A stretch of DNA of 15,606 nt, from contig JAKVBZ010000085.1 of assembly GCA_022448645.1 (NCBI GenBank), positions 7,055 to 22,660 of the forward strand, given 5' to 3'. Within the stretch, counting starts at the first letter, position 1, and the number at the start of each line of letters is the position of its first letter. Made by a program: the position numbers and the translations under genes. Source of the DNA: Pirellulaceae bacterium (GTDB lineage Bacteria > Planctomycetota > Planctomycetia > Pirellulales > Pirellulaceae). Below the pieces are notes generated by a model, which was not told where the DNA came from, did not search any database, and was given only the letters and a program-made list of their open reading frames with translations. Below are positions 2,636-14,492 of the stretch, one piece after another.

Positions 2636-4651
2636 GTGATTGCCGTGCCAAGGCCAAAGAAGCGCAAGACTAAAGTAAATGCCCGAACCCCAACGGGGCA
2701 GCGACGTGGCCTCTGGATTGTCGCGGCGGCGGTGATTGTGGCGGTGGCCTGCATTTTGGCTATGTCGTTTCGCGACCCGACGAACCAGCTATCGGACATT
2801 CCGAGTAACGATGTCGTGGAACGGGCACGGCCGTCGACACAGCCCAACCCCGCTGACACGCTTTCCGACACAGTGGCGCCGGTAACTCTCTCCTTAGAGC
2901 GAAAGCCAGAAACCCCAGTCGACGAGTTGGTCGAAAGGTACGATCCGACTGCCGATGATTGGGATACGGAAGTTCTAAGCGATGCGGCCAACACACAACT
3001 TAAAAAGGTGAGTGAACAGATCCGTCATGGAATCGGAGATAAGGCCAGTTGGCAAAATGTTGACACGATACTGAATGACGACTTTTCTTGTACAGCGTTG
3101 GGTGGGCTGTCGACGTCAACACTGAACAATGTGTTCGATGACGGAACGCTCCGGGTGTGGCGACTCGGTGACGCCGTCGCTTTGCCTACGCCCGAGGAAG
3201 CCGAATCCATCGAAGTGTTACCACAATCCTACCAAGGCGCTGCGGGCTTTTTCGATGCCCTGGAACAACTGATACGCGGTTTGGGTCCGGGCACGGACAT
3301 GCGGGTGAAATTGAAGGTGTTTCAGATCGAAAAACGATCCGACGATTTTCTGACCCGTGTTCTTGTCGAGGCCAGTAGTCGTTCCGCTGAATCCGGCGTG
3401 CAGCAGAATGCGACTTGGCGTTGCTATTGGAGCTATCCGGAAACGGAACAGAAAAATCCTCGCTTGCTGCGGATCTCCCTGGAAGCCTACGAACAGGTGG
3501 GGATTGAATTGGCAAGTGGTACGCTCTTCGCAGACTGTACCCCGTCGGTTTTAGGAAGGACCACGGCATACCAACAACAGCTTTTGCGGGGTATCGGTCA
3601 CTGGTTGCCGCGGTTGGGCCGGTATACAGGGACGACGCTGCTAGGCCACCATGGGTTGGCAGTGGGAGATGTCAACGGTGACGGGCTCGATGATGTCTAT
3701 GTGTGTGAGCCAGGCGGTTTACCCAATCGTCTCTTTGTCCAGGAACGCGACGGATCAGCGACCGATCGCTCAGGCAAAGCAGGTGTCGACTGGCTGGAGG
3801 AGTCGAAGTCCGCGCTACTGATCGATCTGGACAACGACGGCGACCAGGATCTGGTCGTAGCGATGCCCGGGCAGATCCTGTTCGCTGAAAACGAGGATCA
3901 GGGACGTTTCACGCTGCAAGCTAGGAACTATGACGTCTCAGACCCAACTTCGCTTTGTGCTGCGGATTATGACAGTGATGGTGACCTGGACGTTTACGTG
4001 TGTGGCTACATTGCCGGAAAAGAAATAGGTGGGTTGCCGCTGCCCGTGCCGTTTCACGATGCCAACAATGGAGCTACGAATGTTCTGCTGCGGAACGAAG
4101 GCGAATTTCGATTTGTCGGTGCCACTGACACGTCAGGACTGAGCATTAACAACTCACGGTTCAGCTTGGCGGCCGCATGGGATGACTACGACAACGATGG
4201 TGATCAAGATCTCTATGTTGCCAATGACTTCGGCCGTAACAATCTCTACCAAAATGTCGGCGGACGCTTTACGGACGTCGCAGCTCAAGCGGGTGTTGAG
4301 GACATCGCCACTGGCATGTCGGTTTCCTGGGGAGATTACAATCGTGATGGACTCATGGATGTATACGTGGGAAACATGTACTCGAGCGCAGGAAACCGGG
4401 TGACCTATCAGCGAAAGCTGATCGAGACGCAATCTGATCAGGTAGTGGCACAGGTGCAGCGGATGGCCCGAGGAAACACACTGTTTGCCAATGTCGGAGA
4501 TCATGCGTTTCGGGATGTCAGCGAATTAGCCGCCGTGACCATGGGGCGCTGGGCTTGGGCTTCCAAGTTTGTCGACCTAAACAATGACGGTTGGCAAGAT
4601 CTAGTGATCACCAACGGATACGTTACCAATACCGACAGTGGTGATTTGTGA
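2636..4651 (+). CDS. FG-GAP/VCBS-repeat membrane-anchored protein; 5' part of a frame broken by TGA
   Basis: The frame has 671 codons and starts at GTG 2636. A GTG at 2645 is an alternative and is better spaced from the AAGGGAG at 2627-2633. Residues 27-46 (starting GLWIVAAAVIVAV) form a single membrane helix after a basic segment, so the bulk should face the periplasm. From about residue 335 there are six FG-GAP/VCBS-type calcium loops of the form DxNxDGxxD, near residues 345, 397, 444, 517, 567 and 647. Together they suggest the beta-propeller of the CRTAC1/ASPIC family. The frame ends in TGA just after LVITNGYVTNTDSGDL. The codons after the TGA read SFFWRQVV in the same frame, which is how I remember this family continuing, so the ancestral protein probably ran on into the frame ending at 6958. 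Function is not established for the family. Confidence 0.88.
   Translation: MIAVPRPKKRKTKVNARTPTGQRRGLWIVAAAVIVAVACILAMSFRDPTNQLSDIPSNDVVERARPSTQPNPADTLSDTVAPVTLSLERKPETPVDELVERYDPTADDWDTEVLSDAANTQLKKVSEQIRHGIGDKASWQNVDTILNDDFSCTALGGLSTSTLNNVFDDGTLRVWRLGDAVALPTPEEAESIEVLPQSYQGAAGFFDALEQLIRGLGPGTDMRVKLKVFQIEKRSDDFLTRVLVEASSRSAESGVQQNATWRCYWSYPETEQKNPRLLRISLEAYEQVGIELASGTLFADCTPSVLGRTTAYQQQLLRGIGHWLPRLGRYTGTTLLGHHGLAVGDVNGDGLDDVYVCEPGGLPNRLFVQERDGSATDRSGKAGVDWLEESKSALLIDLDNDGDQDLVVAMPGQILFAENEDQGRFTLQARNYDVSDPTSLCAADYDSDGDLDVYVCGYIAGKEIGGLPLPVPFHDANNGATNVLLRNEGEFRFVGATDTSGLSINNSRFSLAAAWDDYDNDGDQDLYVANDFGRNNLYQNVGGRFTDVAAQAGVEDIATGMSVSWGDYNRDGLMDVYVGNMYSSAGNRVTYQRKLIETQSDQVVAQVQRMARGNTLFANVGDHAFRDVSELAAVTMGRWAWASKFVDLNNDGWQDLVITNGYVTNTDSGDL
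4649..4651 (+). other. In-frame TGA interrupting a long conserved reading frame
   Basis: The codons read GAT TTG TGA AGT TTT TTC TGG CGG CAG. Both sides are in the same frame, and the frame is open for 671 codons before and 768 codons after. One base change from a sense codon (TCA Ser, CGA Arg or GGA Gly, for example) would explain it. Other genes here also end in TGA, so genome-wide recoding is not supported. Confidence 0.9.
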
Positions 4652-4672
4652 AGTTTTTTCTGGCGGCAGGTC

Positions 4673-6958
4673 GTGCCGCGATCCCAAGAAGAATCAGCGG
4701 GTACGAAGGCTAGTCGCGATTATCAAGCCGCCTGGAGAGCCACTCAACAGTTGCTTCAAAGCGGTAAATCCTGGAGCGGTCACGAACGGAATTGTGCGAT
4801 GCTGAGCTGTCCTCAACCGGACTCCGATCCCCGGTTTGCTAACGTATCAGCCGCCAGTGGTCTCGATCGGTTCGATGACGGTCGTGGTTTGGCGGTTGTG
4901 GATTGGGATCACGACGGAGACTTGGACCTATGGCTCTCCAACCGCACCGCTCCAAGACTGAGATTCATGAGAAATCAGCTTCCATCCTCTTCAGGGTTCC
5001 TGTCGTTGCGGTTGAGAGGCACAACGTGTAATCGAGACGCAATCGGTGCCAGGGTCGAAGTGCAACTGTCGGAATCAACGCATCCCAAACTGATTCAAAC
5101 ACTGTGCGCGGGCGACGGGTTTCTATCACAGTCGAGTAAATGGATGCATTTCGGGCTCGGCTCAGGCCGCATCCAGCGAGTAAACGTGCAATGGCCCGGC
5201 GGACCAGCGGAATCGTTTAGCGGGATGACAGAAGGACGCCGATACGAGTTGGTGCAGGGTTCTGGCCAGGCGGTGGAATGGCACCCACCCCGACGTTCCC
5301 TTGTGATCAAACCGTCCCCACAGGAACCAGCCGAATCGGTGCCCACCAGCCAGGCACTCATTCCGATGCGGTTTGCCCTTCCCATGCTGCCTTATCGCGA
5401 TTTCGATCAGACCACAAATCGACCGATCAAAACGAACGGCAGACCACTGTTAATCAACTTTTGGGCCAGCTGGTGCACACCGTGTGTCGCTGAACTGCAG
5501 GAATTAATTAATCGCCAGTCCGATTTGCGAGTGGCTCGTTTGGATGTATTGGCACTCAGCGTGGATGGAATGAGTGAGGAGGACACAACCGATTCCATCG
5601 ATGCTGTAAGCCTCCTCGATCAGATCGGTTTTTCGTTTCAACGAGGAATGGCAACGACAGAGTTGCTGGACAAGCTACGGCTGATCGAAGGTCTCCTGTT
5701 TGAACGAACGACATTTGCCGTACCTATGAGCTTGTTGTTAGACCACGATGGCAAGCTCGCCGCAGTTTACCGAGGACGCGTCTCGGTAAACAGGCTGCTC
5801 GATGATGTGAAAAACCTGACTGCCTTGCCGGATGAGCGACGAAATCAAGCCGTTCCATTTACAGGCAGGTGGGTGGATCCCCCCGCTGAAATCGACCTGA
5901 GTCAGGCGGCGGGAACGTTTTACGAGCGTTATCCTGAAGACACATTGATGTATTTTGAGATGGCGCTGAAACAACAGGCAGCTATGGGCGATTCGGACAA
6001 CGGAGCAGATAGCAGACAGGCCGGACTGGTTCGCGCTGACATCCATGGCAAGATGGCTATTGATTTTGCGCAGTCCGGCCGCCTCGAGGATGCCATCGAA
6101 CAATGCCGGAAATCGCTGAGCGTTGAACCACGGCAGGCGACGTTGCAATTGTTGCTTGGAAATCTACTGAGCGATACCGGCAAACCGGAACAGGCTATTG
6201 CGCCTTTTGAATTGGCGCTGCAAATCGACCCGGCGCTGACAGACGCACAGTTCAGCCTGGGATTAGCGCACGGACAACTGGGCCATTTTGAGCAAGCGGC
6301 GGATTGGTTTGAAAAGGTGGTTTCGACGCGGAAAAATGACGCGCAGGCCCATTTCAATCTTGGTATGGCCAGAGAGCAACTCGGACGAATCGCGGACGCG
6401 ATTGAGAGCTATCGTCTGGCGGTGGCCGTCGATCCCGATTTGGCCGACGCTCATAGCAAATTGAGTATGGCACTGGCTCAACGTGGCCAAATCGACGCAG
6501 CCATCAAGCATCTGCAAGAGTTTCTGCGTCTGCGTCCGGGCGCGTACGAGTGGCACTATACGTTGGGTCGGCTGCTACTCCAAACGAACCGCGTCTCGGA
6601 CGCCCTCGAACAATTTGCACAAACGGAACGACTCAAACCCCAATGGTTCCCACCTTTGAATGCTCAAGCTTGGATCTTGGCAACCCACCCGAATCCATCG
6701 ATCAGGGATGAGGGGAAAGCGCTGCAACTTGCCGAAAGAGCTGCTACGTTAACAAAGCATCGGAACGCTGAAATCCTGGACACGCTGGCGGCAGCGTATG
6801 CGTCAGTGGGGCAGTACGAACGGGCGGTCGAAACAGCCCAGCGGGCGATTGAGTTGGCAGAGGACATACCGCAGCTCTCCACCCAGCTTCGCGAAAGGCT
6901 CAAGTCATACGAACAAGACGAGCCTTATCGAGAAGGCGCAGCAGAGACGGTCGAATGA
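4673..6958 (+). CDS. ASPIC/UnbV + thioredoxin (TlpA-like) + TPR protein; 3' part of the same frame
   Basis: 761 residues can be read from GTG 4673, but no good Shine-Dalgarno precedes it. The frame actually continues upstream to the TGA at 4649, so this is probably the second half of one gene. Domains in order: another VCBS calcium loop (D77-W-D-H-D-G-D-L-D85), preceded by GKSWSGHERNCA; ASPIC/UnbV at about 110-195 (RDAIGARVEV, VNVQWPGGPAESF); and a TlpA/redoxin-like thioredoxin domain at about 230-370 with the redox motif W-C268-T-P-C271. The last part is an array of about six TPR units at 405-755 (for example AHFNLGMAREQLGRIADAIE), expected to bind partners. The exported location and redox motif suggest a periplasmic disulfide or thiol function; the substrate is unknown. 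There is no export signal of its own, so independent translation would leave it in the cytoplasm. Confidence 0.85.
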   Translation: MPRSQEESAGTKASRDYQAAWRATQQLLQSGKSWSGHERNCAMLSCPQPDSDPRFANVSAASGLDRFDDGRGLAVVDWDHDGDLDLWLSNRTAPRLRFMRNQLPSSSGFLSLRLRGTTCNRDAIGARVEVQLSESTHPKLIQTLCAGDGFLSQSSKWMHFGLGSGRIQRVNVQWPGGPAESFSGMTEGRRYELVQGSGQAVEWHPPRRSLVIKPSPQEPAESVPTSQALIPMRFALPMLPYRDFDQTTNRPIKTNGRPLLINFWASWCTPCVAELQELINRQSDLRVARLDVLALSVDGMSEEDTTDSIDAVSLLDQIGFSFQRGMATTELLDKLRLIEGLLFERTTFAVPMSLLLDHDGKLAAVYRGRVSVNRLLDDVKNLTALPDERRNQAVPFTGRWVDPPAEIDLSQAAGTFYERYPEDTLMYFEMALKQQAAMGDSDNGADSRQAGLVRADIHGKMAIDFAQSGRLEDAIEQCRKSLSVEPRQATLQLLLGNLLSDTGKPEQAIAPFELALQIDPALTDAQFSLGLAHGQLGHFEQAADWFEKVVSTRKNDAQAHFNLGMAREQLGRIADAIESYRLAVAVDPDLADAHSKLSMALAQRGQIDAAIKHLQEFLRLRPGAYEWHYTLGRLLLQTNRVSDALEQFAQTERLKPQWFPPLNAQAWILATHPNPSIRDEGKALQLAERAATLTKHRNAEILDTLAAAYASVGQYERAVETAQRAIELAEDIPQLSTQLRERLKSYEQDEPYREGAAETVE

Positions 6959-8571: not shown

Positions 8572-8853
8572 AGGAACCTCGGCTTCGATGCACGCCCGAC
8601 GGAGAATCGCGACCCAAGATTTGGGAAATCTTAGTTGGACGGCGCTACTTTTGTCGTGCTAATATTCTCGACCGTAAACACGTCGTAGGCACAAATGTGG
8701 CGCTGCCCAACTACACCAACGTCACGGTACACCAATGGCGCACCAAAGTGACACTGTCCATCTTGACGACATCCAAGTACGGGCTGGCCATCATTGGCGG
8801 TCCCCAGGCTCAGCTTCGATGATTGGCGTGTCAAGCCATGCCGAAAGCGCTCG

Positions 8854-11445
8854 ATGATACGATTTAGCATGCTGCTCGTGTTGATCTTTGCGGCAAACGC
8901 TGCGGCCCAGGATCCGGCCCAGGTCCTGTTTGAGCGCGACATTCAACCGGTTCTGCGTGTGCGGTGTATGTCTTGTCACGGTTTGGAGGATCGTCAGGGT
9001 GACCTCGACATGCGTACCGTCGAGTTGCTGCTCCGGGGCGGGAAGTCCGGCACTGCCATTGTGCCGGGAGATGCTTCGTCGAGCCTGATCTACCAACGCA
9101 TTCTGGACGACTCCATGCCGCCAGCTGGTGAATTGCGTTTGCCGGAAGAGAAGCAACAACTCATCAAGGACTGGCTTGATCAAGGAGCCCGGACAAAAGG
9201 TGTCCCGGAAATTATGGAAAGGTCGATCGATGTCTCAGACCGAGGTCACTGGTCTTTCAAGTCGTTAAACCGCCCGAAAGTTCCCGATATCAGTGATCCT
9301 TCGCTTGTCAGGACGCCGATTGACCGTTTTCTGCTAGAGAAACTGGCGCTTGATGGACTTTCCTATTCGCCGGTGGCCGATCGACGCACCTGGATTCGAC
9401 GACTCAGTTTCGACATCACTGGTTTACCACCTACGTCGAGCGAAATCCTCGCATTCGAATTGGACGAGGGCGAGGGATCCTACAAGCGCGCCATCGACCA
9501 ACTTCTCGACAAGCCGCAGTTTGGGGAACGCTGGGGACGACATTGGCTGGACGCTGCCGGCTACGTGGACACCATCGGCGACGATACCGATGCAACCATA
9601 GGCAAAGTGGCGAAGGGAAAATGGCGCTATCGTGACTGGGTCGTCCGTAGCTTGAACCAGAACAAGCCTTTTGATCAATTCGTGCAAGAACAGGTTGCCG
9701 GTGACGAAATGGTCGATTGGCGATCGGCCGAAGAGTTCGACGAACGTACGACCGACTTACTGATTGCTACGACGTTCCTGCGCAGCTCGGCAGACGAAAC
9801 CATTCAAGATGTACTGAATACGGCCGTGACGCGGCACGAAGTCGCTCAACGGACAATGGAAGTAACTTTTAATTGCTTGCTGGCACTGACCATGAATTGT
9901 GCCCGCTGTCACGACCACAAATACGACCCGATCGGCCAAGTCGACTATTACAGTTTGTTGGCTAATTTCACTCCCGCTTTTGACCCCCAGGCGTGGTTGA
10001 CTCCAAAAGAGCGTGAGCTGCCCGATATTCCGCCGAAACAACTGGCTCAATTCAAGCAGCACAATGCAGAAATTGACAAGCAGATCCAAGGCTTGGAATC
10101 GCAAAAAACCAAAGTCGTCGAGGCGGTTCAAGCTCGGGCTGTCGCAGAACGTTACCTGGCGATTCCCGAACCGATTCGCGCGGACGTGCGCAAGGCCATT
10201 GCAACACCGCAAGAGGAACGAAACCAGTTGCAGGCTTACCTGGCCGAAAAGTTTACTGAATCGGTTAGCGTCACCGCAGAGGAAGCCCAGAAACTGTTTC
10301 AGGAAGAAGACCAAAATGCGACCAAGAAACTGGATCAAGAGATTGGGCAGTTACGGTCCCGGCGGAAGAGCTGGGGATATATCCAAGCCGTCTACAATGT
10401 TGTTGACAGACCGCCGACCTACGTCTTGGTAAGGGGAAATCATGAACGGCCGGCACTCCAGGTTCACCCGCGGTCACCGCAGGTTCTTAGCCTGCCTGAG
10501 ACACACAATCTATTCGCACACGAATCCAAATCTCGGACTGTTTTGGTGCGGTGGCTTACTGATCGGGAGTCACCTGCTGCGGCGCTGATGGCGCGGGTGG
10601 TTGTGAATCGTGCGTGGCAGAAGTTATTCGGCCGTGGCCTTGTGGAGACCACGGACAATTTCGGTCGAAATGGTGCGACACCAAGTCATCCGGAGCTGTT
10701 GGAGTGGCTGGCTGCCGAGTTCGTCGAAAGTGGATGGGACTACAAACAACTCCTGCGGCTGATGGTCAACTCGCGAGTCTACTTGCAGCAGTCCAACTGG
10801 GACTCGCAAACGCATGAAGCCGATCCTGCCAATGTCCTGCTGGCCCGCATGCCGCTCCGGCAACTTGAATCGGAGGCCGTACGGGATGCCATCCTGCACG
10901 TGAGTGGTCAACTGAACTTGAAAATGGGCGGTTCGGCCGTGTCAACTTCTCCTCAACCGGATGGATTCGTAGTGGCATCCGGATCGGCGGACGCGCTCAA
11001 TCGGCGCTCGATGTACCTGTTGCAGCGACGACGCTACCACGAATCGTTTCTGGAATCATTTGGTCAGCCAGAACTGACTACCAATTGTACGGCGCGCAGG
11101 CCTACTGCTGTCGTTGGCCAATCCCTGGCGCAGCTGAACGGCGAATTTCTTTTCAATCAGTCGCAGGCATTTGCCAAACGAGTGATCGCCAGTCGTAAAG
11201 CTGACGAACCCGATCGGGATGATGGGCCGCAGGACGATATTGGCAAAGATATTGTGATGGCCTACCAACTGGCATTGGGTCGAACGCCCTCGAAAGAGGA
11301 AATGGTGTTCACGAAGGAGCTGGTGGAACAGCAGAAGCAAACATATGTCGACGCCGCCATTGCAGAAGATCAACTTTATGCGAGTGCATTCCGGCATCTG
11401 TGCCATATGTTACTATGTAGTAACGAGTTCCTTTATATTCATTAG
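8854..11445 (+). CDS. PSCyt1-DUF1549-DUF1553 multidomain cytochrome-like protein
   Basis: 863 residues from ATG 8854. The frame is open from TTG 8794, but only the internal Met gives a signal peptide (MIRFSMLLVLIFAANAAA|QD). Domains: planctomycete cytochrome c (PSCyt1), about 25-115, with one haem-binding motif C38-M-S-C-H42 and a later DDSMPP whose Met may be the distal ligand; DUF1549 (PSCyt2), about 135-370, with RRLSFDITGLPPTSSEI, FGERWGRHWLDAAGY and the second CxxCH (CARCHDHKYDPIG); a Gln/Glu/Lys-rich probably coiled segment near 400-500; and DUF1553 (PSD1), about 570-830 (NRAWQKLFGRGLVET, DNFGRNGATPSHPELL). These proteins are abundant in planctomycetes, exported, and usually paired with DUF1501, as here. 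A role in electron transfer or extracellular substrate breakdown is inferred; the substrate is unknown. Confidence 0.93.
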   Translation: MIRFSMLLVLIFAANAAAQDPAQVLFERDIQPVLRVRCMSCHGLEDRQGDLDMRTVELLLRGGKSGTAIVPGDASSSLIYQRILDDSMPPAGELRLPEEKQQLIKDWLDQGARTKGVPEIMERSIDVSDRGHWSFKSLNRPKVPDISDPSLVRTPIDRFLLEKLALDGLSYSPVADRRTWIRRLSFDITGLPPTSSEILAFELDEGEGSYKRAIDQLLDKPQFGERWGRHWLDAAGYVDTIGDDTDATIGKVAKGKWRYRDWVVRSLNQNKPFDQFVQEQVAGDEMVDWRSAEEFDERTTDLLIATTFLRSSADETIQDVLNTAVTRHEVAQRTMEVTFNCLLALTMNCARCHDHKYDPIGQVDYYSLLANFTPAFDPQAWLTPKERELPDIPPKQLAQFKQHNAEIDKQIQGLESQKTKVVEAVQARAVAERYLAIPEPIRADVRKAIATPQEERNQLQAYLAEKFTESVSVTAEEAQKLFQEEDQNATKKLDQEIGQLRSRRKSWGYIQAVYNVVDRPPTYVLVRGNHERPALQVHPRSPQVLSLPETHNLFAHESKSRTVLVRWLTDRESPAAALMARVVVNRAWQKLFGRGLVETTDNFGRNGATPSHPELLEWLAAEFVESGWDYKQLLRLMVNSRVYLQQSNWDSQTHEADPANVLLARMPLRQLESEAVRDAILHVSGQLNLKMGGSAVSTSPQPDGFVVASGSADALNRRSMYLLQRRRYHESFLESFGQPELTTNCTARRPTAVVGQSLAQLNGEFLFNQSQAFAKRVIASRKADEPDRDDGPQDDIGKDIVMAYQLALGRTPSKEEMVFTKELVEQQKQTYVDAAIAEDQLYASAFRHLCHMLLCSNEFLYIH

Positions 11446-11513
11446 ATCGCGTTTTCAAACGATGGTAACGCGATAAGTAAGTTTGAAATTGCGATAACAT
11501 GGTTTTTCGCCGG

Positions 11514-11573
11514 AAATGGTAACCCGCAGCGTTAGCGAAGGATGAAGTCAACGTCGGTATTCTCCTCGTTGAC
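11514..11573 (+). repeat. Dispersed intergenic repeat (AAATGGTAACCCGC), copy 2, with hairpin
   Basis: AAATGGTAACCCGC (11514-11527) is followed by AGCGTTAGCGAAGGATGAAG and a hairpin GTCAACG/CGTTGAC (11547-11553 with 11567-11573). The tail GGATGAAGTCA resembles the GGGTGATGTCA end of the repeat at 7029-7052. From memory, AACCCG(A/C)-GCG-t-AGCGAGGGA-like sequences are common in Rhodopirellula intergenic DNA. The element occupies most of the 296-base gap between the cytochrome and DUF1501 genes; a TTAAAATAGG at 11644-11653 could serve as a -10 box but has no good -35. Confidence 0.5.
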
Positions 11574-11741
11574 GCGCCGAGTTACGATGTGTCGCAACAT
11601 CAAGCTCATGCGTCGAATTGCGATCGCTAACACCCAAAGCGATTTAAAATAGGCTCTGACACTTGAGTTCAACCTGGCCTCACAAACACCTGCTTCCTGA
11701 AACTTGATCGCTCTTTAAAAGACCTCGAGGTCAATTCCCTC

Positions 11742-13136
11742 ATGTTAAGTCGCCGAGAGTTGTTGCAGAACAGTGGAATGGGATTCGGTGCTCTGGCATT
11801 GAATGCGATGTTGCATCGCACGACGTCAGCGGGGTCCAGCAGCAACACGCCGTCAGACGCCCATCATGCTCCTCGGGCAAAGTCGGTGATCTTCCTGATG
11901 CAGTCTGGTGGCGCAAGTCAAATGGATTTGTTCGATCCCAAGCCGGTGCTGCAGAGGTTGGGTGGCCAGACGTATGTCGATAAAGTGGAAATGTTTCAGC
12001 CGGGTAGTGAAAAAAATGTCTTGCTGGCATCGCCTTGGAAGTTCAAGAAATATGGCGCATGCGGGATGGATTTTTCCGAAGCCATACCTCACACGGCTCG
12101 CCACGCGGACGATATTTGCATGGTGCGGTCGATGTACACCGGCCATAACAATCACACCGAAGCGCTGGTGATGATTACCAGCGGCAAGATCTTTCCAGGC
12201 CGTCCGACTTGGGGATCGTGGATCAGCTACGCGCTGGGAAGCGAAAACGAAAACCTGCCCGCCTTTGTCGTACTACGGGATCCAGATGGTTACCCGGGTA
12301 CCGGGTCCACGCTCTGGCAAAACGGCTGGCTACCGGCCGTGCACCGTGGCACGGAGTTTAGCTCCCAGGGAAGTCCGGTGTTGAACTTGGCCCCACATCA
12401 GCAACCACTCGCCGGGACACGAGAAACCGACTTGGAATTTCTGCAGCAGCTCAATCGCCAACATCAGGAGAAGTACCCAGTAAATTCGTTGCTGGATGCA
12501 CGGATCCGGAACTTTGAGTTGGCGGCCCGGATGCAGCTGGCTGCTGTGGACACTCTCGATGTCGAGCAGGAATCCGAAGCAACACAGAAACTGTACGGTT
12601 TAGATAACCCGACCACCGCAGGCTACGGACGCCGGTTGTTGATGGCTCGTCGCATGATCGAATCGGGTGTACGCTTCATCCAAGTGTTTGCGGAACGTGG
12701 CAATCCGTGGGACAGTCATACTGACGTGGACGGTGAGATCCGTCGTATTTCTGGTGTCACGGATTTCTCGGTGTCCGCATTGCTCACCGACTTAAAACAG
12801 CGTGGTTTGCTGGACGAGACCATCGTTGTCTGGACTGGTGAATTTGGTCGGCTGCCGGTATCCCAAAATGGCAAGGGACGAGATCACAATCGCAACGCGT
12901 TTACGTTGTTGCTAGCCGGTGGTGGTTTCAAACCTGGTTATATTTACGGCACCACGGATGATGTCGGTTACAAAGCCGTCGAGGGGAGAGTGAGCGTGCC
13001 AGATATGTTCGCCACCGTCATGCATCAGCTGGGAATCGATCATGATGCGTTGACCTACGAACATCACGGTCGACCGGAGACACCGACCGATTCGGTCGTT
13101 ACCGATGCGCGGGTTGTTCGAGAACTGTTGGCATGA
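11742..13136 (+). CDS. DUF1501 family exported protein (Tat signal)
   Basis: 464 residues from ATG 11742. The N-terminus SRRELLQNSGMGFGALALNA is a twin-arginine signal, so the protein is exported folded. DUF1501 spans nearly the whole mature chain and is related to the alkaline phosphatase/sulfatase superfamily. Recognisable family segments are FLMQSGGASQMDLFDPKP near 50-68, MVRSMYTGHNNHTEALVMITSG, RRLLMARRMIESGVRFIQV, WDSHTDVDG, WTGEFGRLPVSQNGKGRDHN and PDMFATVMHQLGID. The Asp/His-rich positions (D-H-N, G-E-F-G-R) are probable metal ligands by analogy with that superfamily. The family normally follows a DUF1549/DUF1553 gene, as here, but the 296-base repeat-containing gap is larger than is usual for this pair. 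The reaction is unknown. Confidence 0.93.
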   Translation: MLSRRELLQNSGMGFGALALNAMLHRTTSAGSSSNTPSDAHHAPRAKSVIFLMQSGGASQMDLFDPKPVLQRLGGQTYVDKVEMFQPGSEKNVLLASPWKFKKYGACGMDFSEAIPHTARHADDICMVRSMYTGHNNHTEALVMITSGKIFPGRPTWGSWISYALGSENENLPAFVVLRDPDGYPGTGSTLWQNGWLPAVHRGTEFSSQGSPVLNLAPHQQPLAGTRETDLEFLQQLNRQHQEKYPVNSLLDARIRNFELAARMQLAAVDTLDVEQESEATQKLYGLDNPTTAGYGRRLLMARRMIESGVRFIQVFAERGNPWDSHTDVDGEIRRISGVTDFSVSALLTDLKQRGLLDETIVVWTGEFGRLPVSQNGKGRDHNRNAFTLLLAGGGFKPGYIYGTTDDVGYKAVEGRVSVPDMFATVMHQLGIDHDALTYEHHGRPETPTDSVVTDARVVRELLA

Positions 13137-13160
13137 GATTCAACGCCTTCAGAGTGTGAC

Positions 13161-14492
13161 ATGAAGCAGCTGAAACCAACCCGTCGCCAATTCGTTGCAA
13201 CGTCCGCAGCGACCTTCATGCCTTATGTCTTTACCCCCCAGGCCCACGCGTCTGACGAGCCGAAGAGCAAGAACGACCGCTTGACCATCGGCGCCATCGG
13301 CATGAGACATCGCGGCTCCTTTGTAACACACAAAGCTCTCCCCTATGGCGATGTGGTGGCCCTTTGCGATGTGGACCAACAGATTGCCGAAAAGGCCAAG
13401 GAGGAATTTGGCGGTAAGGCCGACCTGTACGAAGACTATCGGGCCCTGCTCGATCGCCAGGACATTGACGTGGTGATCATTGCTACGCCCGACCACTGGC
13501 ATGCGGTCCAGGCAATCGATGCTTGTTTTGCTGAGAAGGATGTGTTTCTGGAGAAGCCGTTGGCTTTGACGATCGATGAAGGAAAGCTGCTCTGCAAGGT
13601 AGTGAAACAGACGGGTCGTGTCGTTCAGGTGGGCAATTGGCGACGCAGCGATCCAATTTTTCGCCAGGCGTGCGAAATGGTTCGTGCCGGTCGACTTGGC
13701 CAAGTTCAAAAAGTGATTGTCACCATGGGAAAGAACGAAACCGGCGGGCCGTTTGTCACGAAAGAACCGCCCGCGCACCTCAATTGGGATATGTGGCTTG
13801 GCCAAGCGCCCCTGGTCCCCTACTGCGCCGAGCGGTGTCATCACAACTTCCGCTGGTGGTTCGACTACGCCGGAGGACAGATGACCGATTGGGGGGCTCA
13901 TTTCCTGGACATCGCCCAATGGGGCCTTGGCATGGATGACTCAGGCCCGGTGGAAATCGACAGCCAGGCGACGTTTCCTGAAATCGAAAACGGTTATGAC
14001 GTGCCAACCCGATATTGGGCCCGGCTAACCTACGCCGGCGGTATCGATGTGATTGTCGACGACAGCCAAACTCGCTATGGCATCATGTTTGAAGGAGACA
14101 AAGGACGGATATTCGTCAACGATGGAGGCGTCTTCGGTATGCCCGTCGATCAGCTCAAGGACAATCCATTGCCGCCCGAAGACTACAAGCTTTACGCCCA
14201 CGACGATCTTTCCTACGAGCCCAAGCGTGGAAGTAGTCTCGCACCGGAAAACCACGTGCGAAATTTTGTGGACTGTGTCAAATCGGGGAACACCCCAATC
14301 TCCAGCGTCGACAGTCAGCACCGCACCGCCAGTTTGTGTCATCTGGGTAATCTATCCATGCGGCTCGGGCGCAAGTTGACATGGGATCCACATGGTGAGC
14401 AGTTTGTTGGTGATGACGAAGCTGACCAGTGGCTCTCCCGAACTCAACGCGAGCCATATCAAATATCGAGTCGTGGGTCCTCAAAAACCTGA
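13161..14492 (+). CDS. Tat-exported Gfo/Idh/MocA family oxidoreductase
   Basis: 443 residues from ATG 13161, 24 bases after the DUF1501 stop, so probably co-transcribed. TRRQFVATSAATFM is a twin-arginine signal, which suits export with bound cofactor. A Rossmann NAD(P)-binding fold covers about 41-165, with the nucleotide loop GAIGMRHRG (44-52), acidic VALCDVD, ATPDHWH (109-115) and the family motif E131-K-P133. The C-terminal dimerisation/substrate domain contains HHNFRWWFDYAGGQMTDWGA and ENHVRNFVDCVKSG, the usual features of planctomycete exported members. These enzymes typically oxidise or isomerise sugars or cyclic polyols. The last residues (SSRGSSKT) look like a nonconserved tail. The substrate cannot be read from sequence, but the neighbours suggest an extracellular carbohydrate-type compound. 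Confidence 0.93.
   Translation: MKQLKPTRRQFVATSAATFMPYVFTPQAHASDEPKSKNDRLTIGAIGMRHRGSFVTHKALPYGDVVALCDVDQQIAEKAKEEFGGKADLYEDYRALLDRQDIDVVIIATPDHWHAVQAIDACFAEKDVFLEKPLALTIDEGKLLCKVVKQTGRVVQVGNWRRSDPIFRQACEMVRAGRLGQVQKVIVTMGKNETGGPFVTKEPPAHLNWDMWLGQAPLVPYCAERCHHNFRWWFDYAGGQMTDWGAHFLDIAQWGLGMDDSGPVEIDSQATFPEIENGYDVPTRYWARLTYAGGIDVIVDDSQTRYGIMFEGDKGRIFVNDGGVFGMPVDQLKDNPLPPEDYKLYAHDDLSYEPKRGSSLAPENHVRNFVDCVKSGNTPISSVDSQHRTASLCHLGNLSMRLGRKLTWDPHGEQFVGDDEADQWLSRTQREPYQISSRGSSKT

Follow-up and report, generated by a model that had tools for sequence, protein, structure and literature searches.

The locus raises the question of how a single in-frame TGA is read when the reading frame continues beyond it. 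In the window, i.e. the whole analysed stretch of 15,606 nucleotides from a Pirellulaceae bacterium, the frame running from GTG 2636 to TGA 6956-6958 on the forward strand contains exactly one internal stop, TGA 4649-4651 (codon 672), with 671 codons upstream and 768 downstream; read-through gives 1440 residues. GTG 2645 is a second start candidate, and the choice between the two is immaterial to the TGA question. A first-pass annotation had described the frame as open and domain-consistent on either side of this stop, which the translation bears out, and had offered a recent nonsense mutation, a sequencing error, a deliberate split into two genes or stop read-through as explanations. Read-through had thus been listed, but neither selenocysteine nor the hairpin that follows had been named. 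Comparison with relatives indicates that the TGA is most probably decoded as selenocysteine (Sec), for which we estimate a probability of about 0.97. Since the TGA is conserved, is followed by a SECIS hairpin and occurs in genomes with Sec machinery, the gene (2636..6958, + strand) is best read as one selenoprotein of 1440 residues with Sec at position 672.

Homologues are collinear with the read-through protein across nearly its full length. Identity to eight relatives amounts to 45-53% before the TGA and 38-47% after it. On both sides of the TGA the differences from these relatives lie mostly at third codon positions (for locus L001, 213/181/384 by codon position before and 296/219/458 after), so that selection on the protein also acts on the second half. 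A restart at GTG 4673 would rely on an unconvincing ribosome site (AGG alone, 2 nt upstream), and the downstream half is nowhere strongly hydrophobic (19-residue means reach 1.1 at best, versus 2.7 at residue 25), in line with the earlier statement that this half lacks an export signal and a good ribosome site. Likewise, the continuation SFFWRQVV after the TGA is indeed how homologues run on. From the 2.3 kb free of lesions after the stop, either retained function or a recent origin had been argued; the former is supported, the latter is not.

A protein database search with the read-through protein matched 2712 homologues, of which the best 120 were listed; being made of called frames, the database is biased toward sense forms. 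Searches of species genomes gave 92 matching places, of which 80 loci were retained, using peptide patterns that exclude residue 672. The alignment at the stop position that the first-pass annotation had proposed showed TGA at codon 672 in 83 of 84 sites with at least 33% identity and TCG in the remaining one. Loci from whole-genome samples carry TGA in 61 of 75 sites and further stretches (L175-L182) in 8 of 8; the first 84 sites and the set of 75 combined give TGA in 140 of 154 distinct sites. Such recurrence at one codon greatly exceeds what chance would produce. A stop at this codon is TGA every time, never TAA or TAG. Sites with TGA are also found on contigs longer than 1 Mb (G245, G303, G333, G352, G428, G400). 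By title, 79 TGA loci belong to Planctomycetota (37), Verrucomicrobiota (36), Acidobacteriota (2) and Lentisphaerota (2), with 2 unassigned. One of the loci, L049, is titled Akkermansia muciniphila; its gene groups by similarity with environmental Verrucomicrobiota genes, and the title may be wrong.

The whole-genome phylum samples were searched with E-value limits that favour relatives near the window's gene. In the G008 sample 26 of 199 genomes matched, and 38 of the 43 matches had exactly one stop, a TGA. The sample around G046 (itself a Thermoanaerobaculia genome by title) yielded matches in 35 of 199 genomes; among 40 matches, 28 contained one TGA, 1 contained TGA plus TAG and 11 had no stop. 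Only G016 itself, a record titled Verrucomicrobia, matched in the sample named after it (1/194 genomes), with two matches that both carry TGA. Among plasmid records there were three weak matches, at 28-32% identity and each spanning less than 80% of the query. The Thermoanaerobaculia copy with TAG besides TGA (L078 and L124, from G046) is a match that does not form one open frame, and may reflect gene decay or an assembly error.

In 126 non-redundant sense homologues the position of residue 672 is occupied by Ser (26), Asp (25), Glu (20), Asn (16), Ala (15), Gly (6), Cys (6), His (5), Gln (4) or others (3). The Sec residue is therefore not required superfamily-wide: Cys stands there in only 6/126, and Ser, Asp, Glu and Asn are common.

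The TGA is followed by AGUUUUUUCUG and then by GCGGCA-GGUCG-UGCCGC, which forms a hairpin (4663..4679, + strand) with a stem of 6 bp (4663-4668 with 4674-4679) and a 5-nt loop, GGUCG (4669-4673), that starts with GG and lies 17 nt from the UGA. These values are within all limits of the bSECIS model as specified in the legend to Fig. 2 of PMC13188914 (loop 3-9 nt, stem 4-16 bp, a G in the first two loop positions, UGA-to-loop distance 16-37 nt). The loop G is present in 140 of 140 TGA sites. All six pairs can form in 127 of the 140 distinct TGA sites versus 1 of 14 sense sites, the latter serving as the strongest control, which encodes nearly the same peptide, and the inner five pairs in 133/140 versus 1/14; at least one of the six pairs is thus missing in 13 TGA sites and one of the inner five in 7. 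For these counts repeated and short rows were dropped and later-fetched sites were excluded. Among the later sites, eight with TGA have six pairs (five sites) or four pairs (three sites), and the sense site L174 has three; the other later sites are repeats.

Covariation was assessed over 85 aligned sites (77 distinct, TCG row included). Paired cells make up 97.8% versus 92.0% in shuffled alignments (reached in 0/500), and 27 cells are changed on both sides versus 2.1 in shuffles (0/500). Three pairs are changed on both sides versus 0.8, matched by 2/500 shuffles; further pair types, one of the five measures, are unremarkable (6 versus 4.7, reached in 76/500). When the stem partners are slid against each other, pairing falls to 14-67%, and RNAalifold, unaided, predicts five of the six pairs. 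The covarying codons encode Arg and, four codons further on, Ser, Pro, Ala or Thr, in the combinations CGG-TCG/CCG, CGA-TCG, CGC-GCG, AGG-CCT and CGT-ACG. Because the paired codons change together, the amino acid that follows WRQVV tracks the Arg codon. The folding energy of the window's stretch is no better than that of shuffles (z -0.19), its best fold includes the hairpin, and an Rfam scan of the window returned no match.

Several individual sites deviate from this pattern. L024 (8134-8175), a paralogue in the genome of L002 (isolate Bpl_9), has TCG for TGA and one broken hairpin pair, and is the only row of the first alignment with a broken pair in columns 18-28; it has the appearance of a replacement of Sec by Ser accompanied by decay of the SECIS. 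L133 and L165 (G369) carry the sense codon GAC (Asp) together with all six hairpin pairs, either by chance or as a relic of lost Sec. A divergent branch of 33-39% identity (L135-L144, L110, L153-L155 and part of L175-L182), mostly reading ...M.DTUSxFWRxVV, keeps the TGA, and most of its rows keep the hairpin; in six rows (L136, L139, L141, L175, L177 and L181) a shift in register, as from a bulge in the stem, affects the lower pairs.

The genomes of the relatives were then considered for Sec machinery. Strong SelA was defined as E below 1e-60 and counted by hand; for tRNA-Sec, which also scores in all 14 control genomes, we set a line of 53 bits, other tRNAs reaching up to 51.9. Forty-seven genomes behind TGA loci contain tRNA-Sec of at least 53 bits in 36 and strong SelA in 43 cases. 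The four without strong SelA are G005, G014, G041 and G042: tRNA-Sec scores 68-70 bits in G005, G014 and G042, and SelB is over the cut-off in G042 and G041, while G005 and G014 have neither SelA nor SelB over the cut-off. In the G008 sample strong SelA occurs in 25 of 26 TGA genomes versus 111 of 173 others (p 0.0005), and in the G046 sample in 24 of 26 versus 106 of 173 (p 0.0015), both by Fisher tests that ignore relatedness. The exception in the G008 sample, G196, has SelB, and like G041 it has neither SelA nor tRNA-Sec above background; in the two exceptions of the G046 sample, tRNA-Sec scores 70 bits (G324) and 69 bits (G384). Strong SelA is common in these phyla anyway (136/199 and 130/199 genomes of the G008 and G046 samples). 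Altogether, SelA, tRNA-Sec or SelB is present in every distinct TGA-bearing genome among the relatives (96 of 96), though not all parts in each. Nine genomes of the G046 sample carry sense forms only; strong SelA is found in four of these, and in the others (G293, G338, G347, G356, G407) neither SelB over the cut-off nor tRNA-Sec above background was detected.

These data bear directly on the other ways in which the TGA could be read. The window sequence by itself, with its single stop, would be compatible with a recent nonsense mutation, a sequencing error or a pair of separate genes. This reading is refuted by the comparison with relatives and has a negligible probability: the same TGA recurs at 140 distinct sites in loci of Planctomycetota, Verrucomicrobiota, Lentisphaerota and Acidobacteriota, protein-coding selection continues past the stop, and the second gene of a split would have no convincing ribosome site or export signal. 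An organism-wide use of UGA as a sense codon (code 4 or 25) would account for the open frame and nothing more, and is just as negligible. It is refuted within the window, where three genes terminate at TGA (the DUF1501 gene, the Gfo/Idh gene and the selenoprotein gene itself), and the first two of these stops lie no more than 8 residues from the ends of the Pfam domains; moreover, the selenoprotein gene has only one internal TGA. Very unlikely, if a little less so, is read-through of the UGA by a near-cognate tRNA, e.g. that for Trp, giving short and long forms of a protein that lacks selenocysteine. Such read-through occurs in bacteria, and the truncated product would remain a membrane-anchored propeller; however, this explanation leaves unaccounted for both the covarying SECIS-like hairpin, which is tied to the TGA forms, and the Sec machinery in 96/96 TGA genomes, and Trp occupies the position in 0 of 126 sense homologues.

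The remaining genes of the window include a DUF1559 protein with a prepilin-like N-terminus (1005-2039, - strand) and, at 8794-14492, a Planctomycete cytochrome C/DUF1549/DUF1553 protein followed by the DUF1501 protein and a Gfo/Idh/MocA oxidoreductase, a set that is usual in Planctomycetota. When neighbouring frames of at least 180 aa from L001-L080 and the window were compared all-against-all, no neighbour family occurred in more than 9 of 81 loci, so the gene neighbourhood gives no functional lead.

The selenoprotein itself combines several domains, all on the + strand. A hydrophobic N-terminal stretch (residues 25-46, 2708..2773; Kyte-Doolittle 19-residue maximum 2.7 at residue 25) is a probable membrane anchor. 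Pfam models detect FG-GAP repeats, UnbV_ASPIC, an AhpC/TSA-thioredoxin domain and many TPRs in the read-through protein. The FG-GAP repeats and UnbV_ASPIC (PF07593, residues 802-870, 5039..5245; E 2e-14) exceed their cut-offs and belong to a CRTAC1-like core of FG-GAP/VCBS beta-propeller plus UnbV/ASPIC (3524..5263), its fold being shared with CRTAC1. A ResA/TlpA-like thioredoxin domain follows (residues 933-1041, 5432..5758; PF00578 E 1e-6, Foldseek match to ResA 1st9_A with TMt 0.82) with the redox motif CTPC (residues 947-950, 5474..5485), and tetratricopeptide repeats matched by Pfam TPR models cover residues about 1134-1410 (6035..6865). Among the 25 families listed of 32 NCBIfam matches, only a TPR end-of-group domain exceeds its cut-off. 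A structure model (pLDDT 93.7, pTM 0.94) has helix 376-386 begin with Sec.

Of 130 Sec forms, 121 have an intact CxxC motif in the thioredoxin domain, versus 24 of 119 sense forms. Rows identical over residues 560-800 were treated as repeats, leaving 138 of 142 Sec and 126 of 130 sense rows, from which 8 Sec and 7 sense rows with nothing aligned at CxxC were omitted; with repeats included the counts are 125/134 and 26/123. A tree-based test with nine independent pairs gave on average 5.9 pairs changing in the same direction, 0.0 in opposite directions and 3.1 without difference (median p 0.031, range 0.016-0.22), and modestly supports an association of Sec and CxxC in these sequences. In L045, L050, L051, L052 and L060 (by title four Roseibacillus and one Akkermansiaceae), UGA and hairpin are kept and the second Cys of the thioredoxin motif is lost.

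Based on these results we propose the following course of events. At the UGA, the downstream mRNA hairpin, acting as a bacterial SECIS, would recruit SelB with Sec-tRNA, and insertion of selenocysteine would yield the single long protein. The product would be extracytoplasmic and probably membrane-anchored, joining the CRTAC1-like beta-propeller/UnbV core to the ResA/TlpA-like thioredoxin domain and the TPRs. Its selenol, at the start of a helix just past the propeller repeats, would most likely be the reactive centre of a redox reaction; that the TGA encodes Sec and that this Sec has a redox role is, taken jointly, highly probable. Because Sec and CxxC co-occur, we further propose that the fused thioredoxin domain re-reduces the selenol in cis, a step to which we assign roughly even odds. 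A different role of the inserted Sec, structural or metal-binding and without catalysis together with the thioredoxin domain, so that CxxC would merely mark the same lineage, appears unlikely. FG-GAP/VCBS propellers bind metal ions, many non-Sec homologues have Asp, Glu, Asn or Ser at the position, and CxxC is missing in 9 of 130 Sec forms, all of which would fit such a role; against it, Sec and CxxC vary jointly on the tree, where opposite pairs average 0.0, and CxxC is also kept in three Cys forms out of six (P0004, P0013, P0014).

With known bacterial selenoproteins such as formate dehydrogenase H, the family shares the in-frame UGA, a hairpin at SECIS distance, a G-rich apical loop and Sec machinery in relatives; unlike in those, Cys seldom takes the Sec position (6/126) and there is no UxxC/CxxU motif. 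CRTAC1 (cartilage acidic protein 1) and the bacterial UnbV/ASPIC-FG-GAP family differ from the window protein, which adds Sec, thioredoxin and TPR domains and the probable anchor. Fold and CxxC of the thioredoxin domain are those of the ResA/TlpA/CcmG thiol-disulfide oxidoreductases, but here the domain is part of a 1440-residue protein and its own motif is without Sec. Selenoproteins with a ResA/TlpA-like domain do exist, namely the UGC-containing TlpA disulfide reductase, which has a row in a 2026 selenoprotein catalogue (PMC13188914), and a WAxxUGC ResA-like protein (NF041054); judged by their names, their Sec lies in the thioredoxin motif, whereas the window protein has Sec beside the propeller and a plain CxxC. 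The window protein scores 35.9 against NF041054 (cut-off 300).

The whole of Table 1 of the 2026 catalogue, the part of PMC13188914 that lists its 119 families and subfamilies, contains by name no FG-GAP, VCBS, UnbV/ASPIC or CRTAC1-like family. Literature searches, covering mostly open-access journal papers, found nothing for selenocysteine with UnbV, and nothing relevant among the matches listed for selenocysteine with FG-GAP, VCBS or CRTAC1. Selenoprotein genes have been reported in two planctomycetes from Porphyra, in a paper whose supplementary candidate table could include a member (PMC4807772). The family of the window protein, built on a CRTAC1-like scaffold and present in several bacterial phyla, thus appears to be new among selenoproteins. 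The authors of deep-Sep state that the program may miss selenoproteins without Cys homologues (PMC12013277), and the family may have been overlooked because search programs require such homologues. Gene callers that treat UGA as a stop cut genes of this kind in two, and each piece is then mistaken for a protein of its own or a pseudogene.

Tentatively, and with somewhat less than even confidence, we suggest a recurrent class of extracytoplasmic selenoenzymes in which the reaction with an external substrate takes place at a selenol on a CRTAC1-like propeller/UnbV scaffold, and the protein's own thioredoxin domain regenerates that selenol. The class would occur in a considerable minority of planctomycete and acidobacterial genomes as well as some verrucomicrobia, and the many UnbV/ASPIC proteins in which Asp, Glu, Ser or Asn takes the Sec position and CxxC is broken would represent its redox-dead descendants or forerunners. 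The family would give selenium biology a beta-propeller scaffold and would show that environmental planctomycetes, verrucomicrobia and acidobacteria use selenium outside the catalogued families. It would also provide a concrete chemical lead on the UnbV/ASPIC domain.
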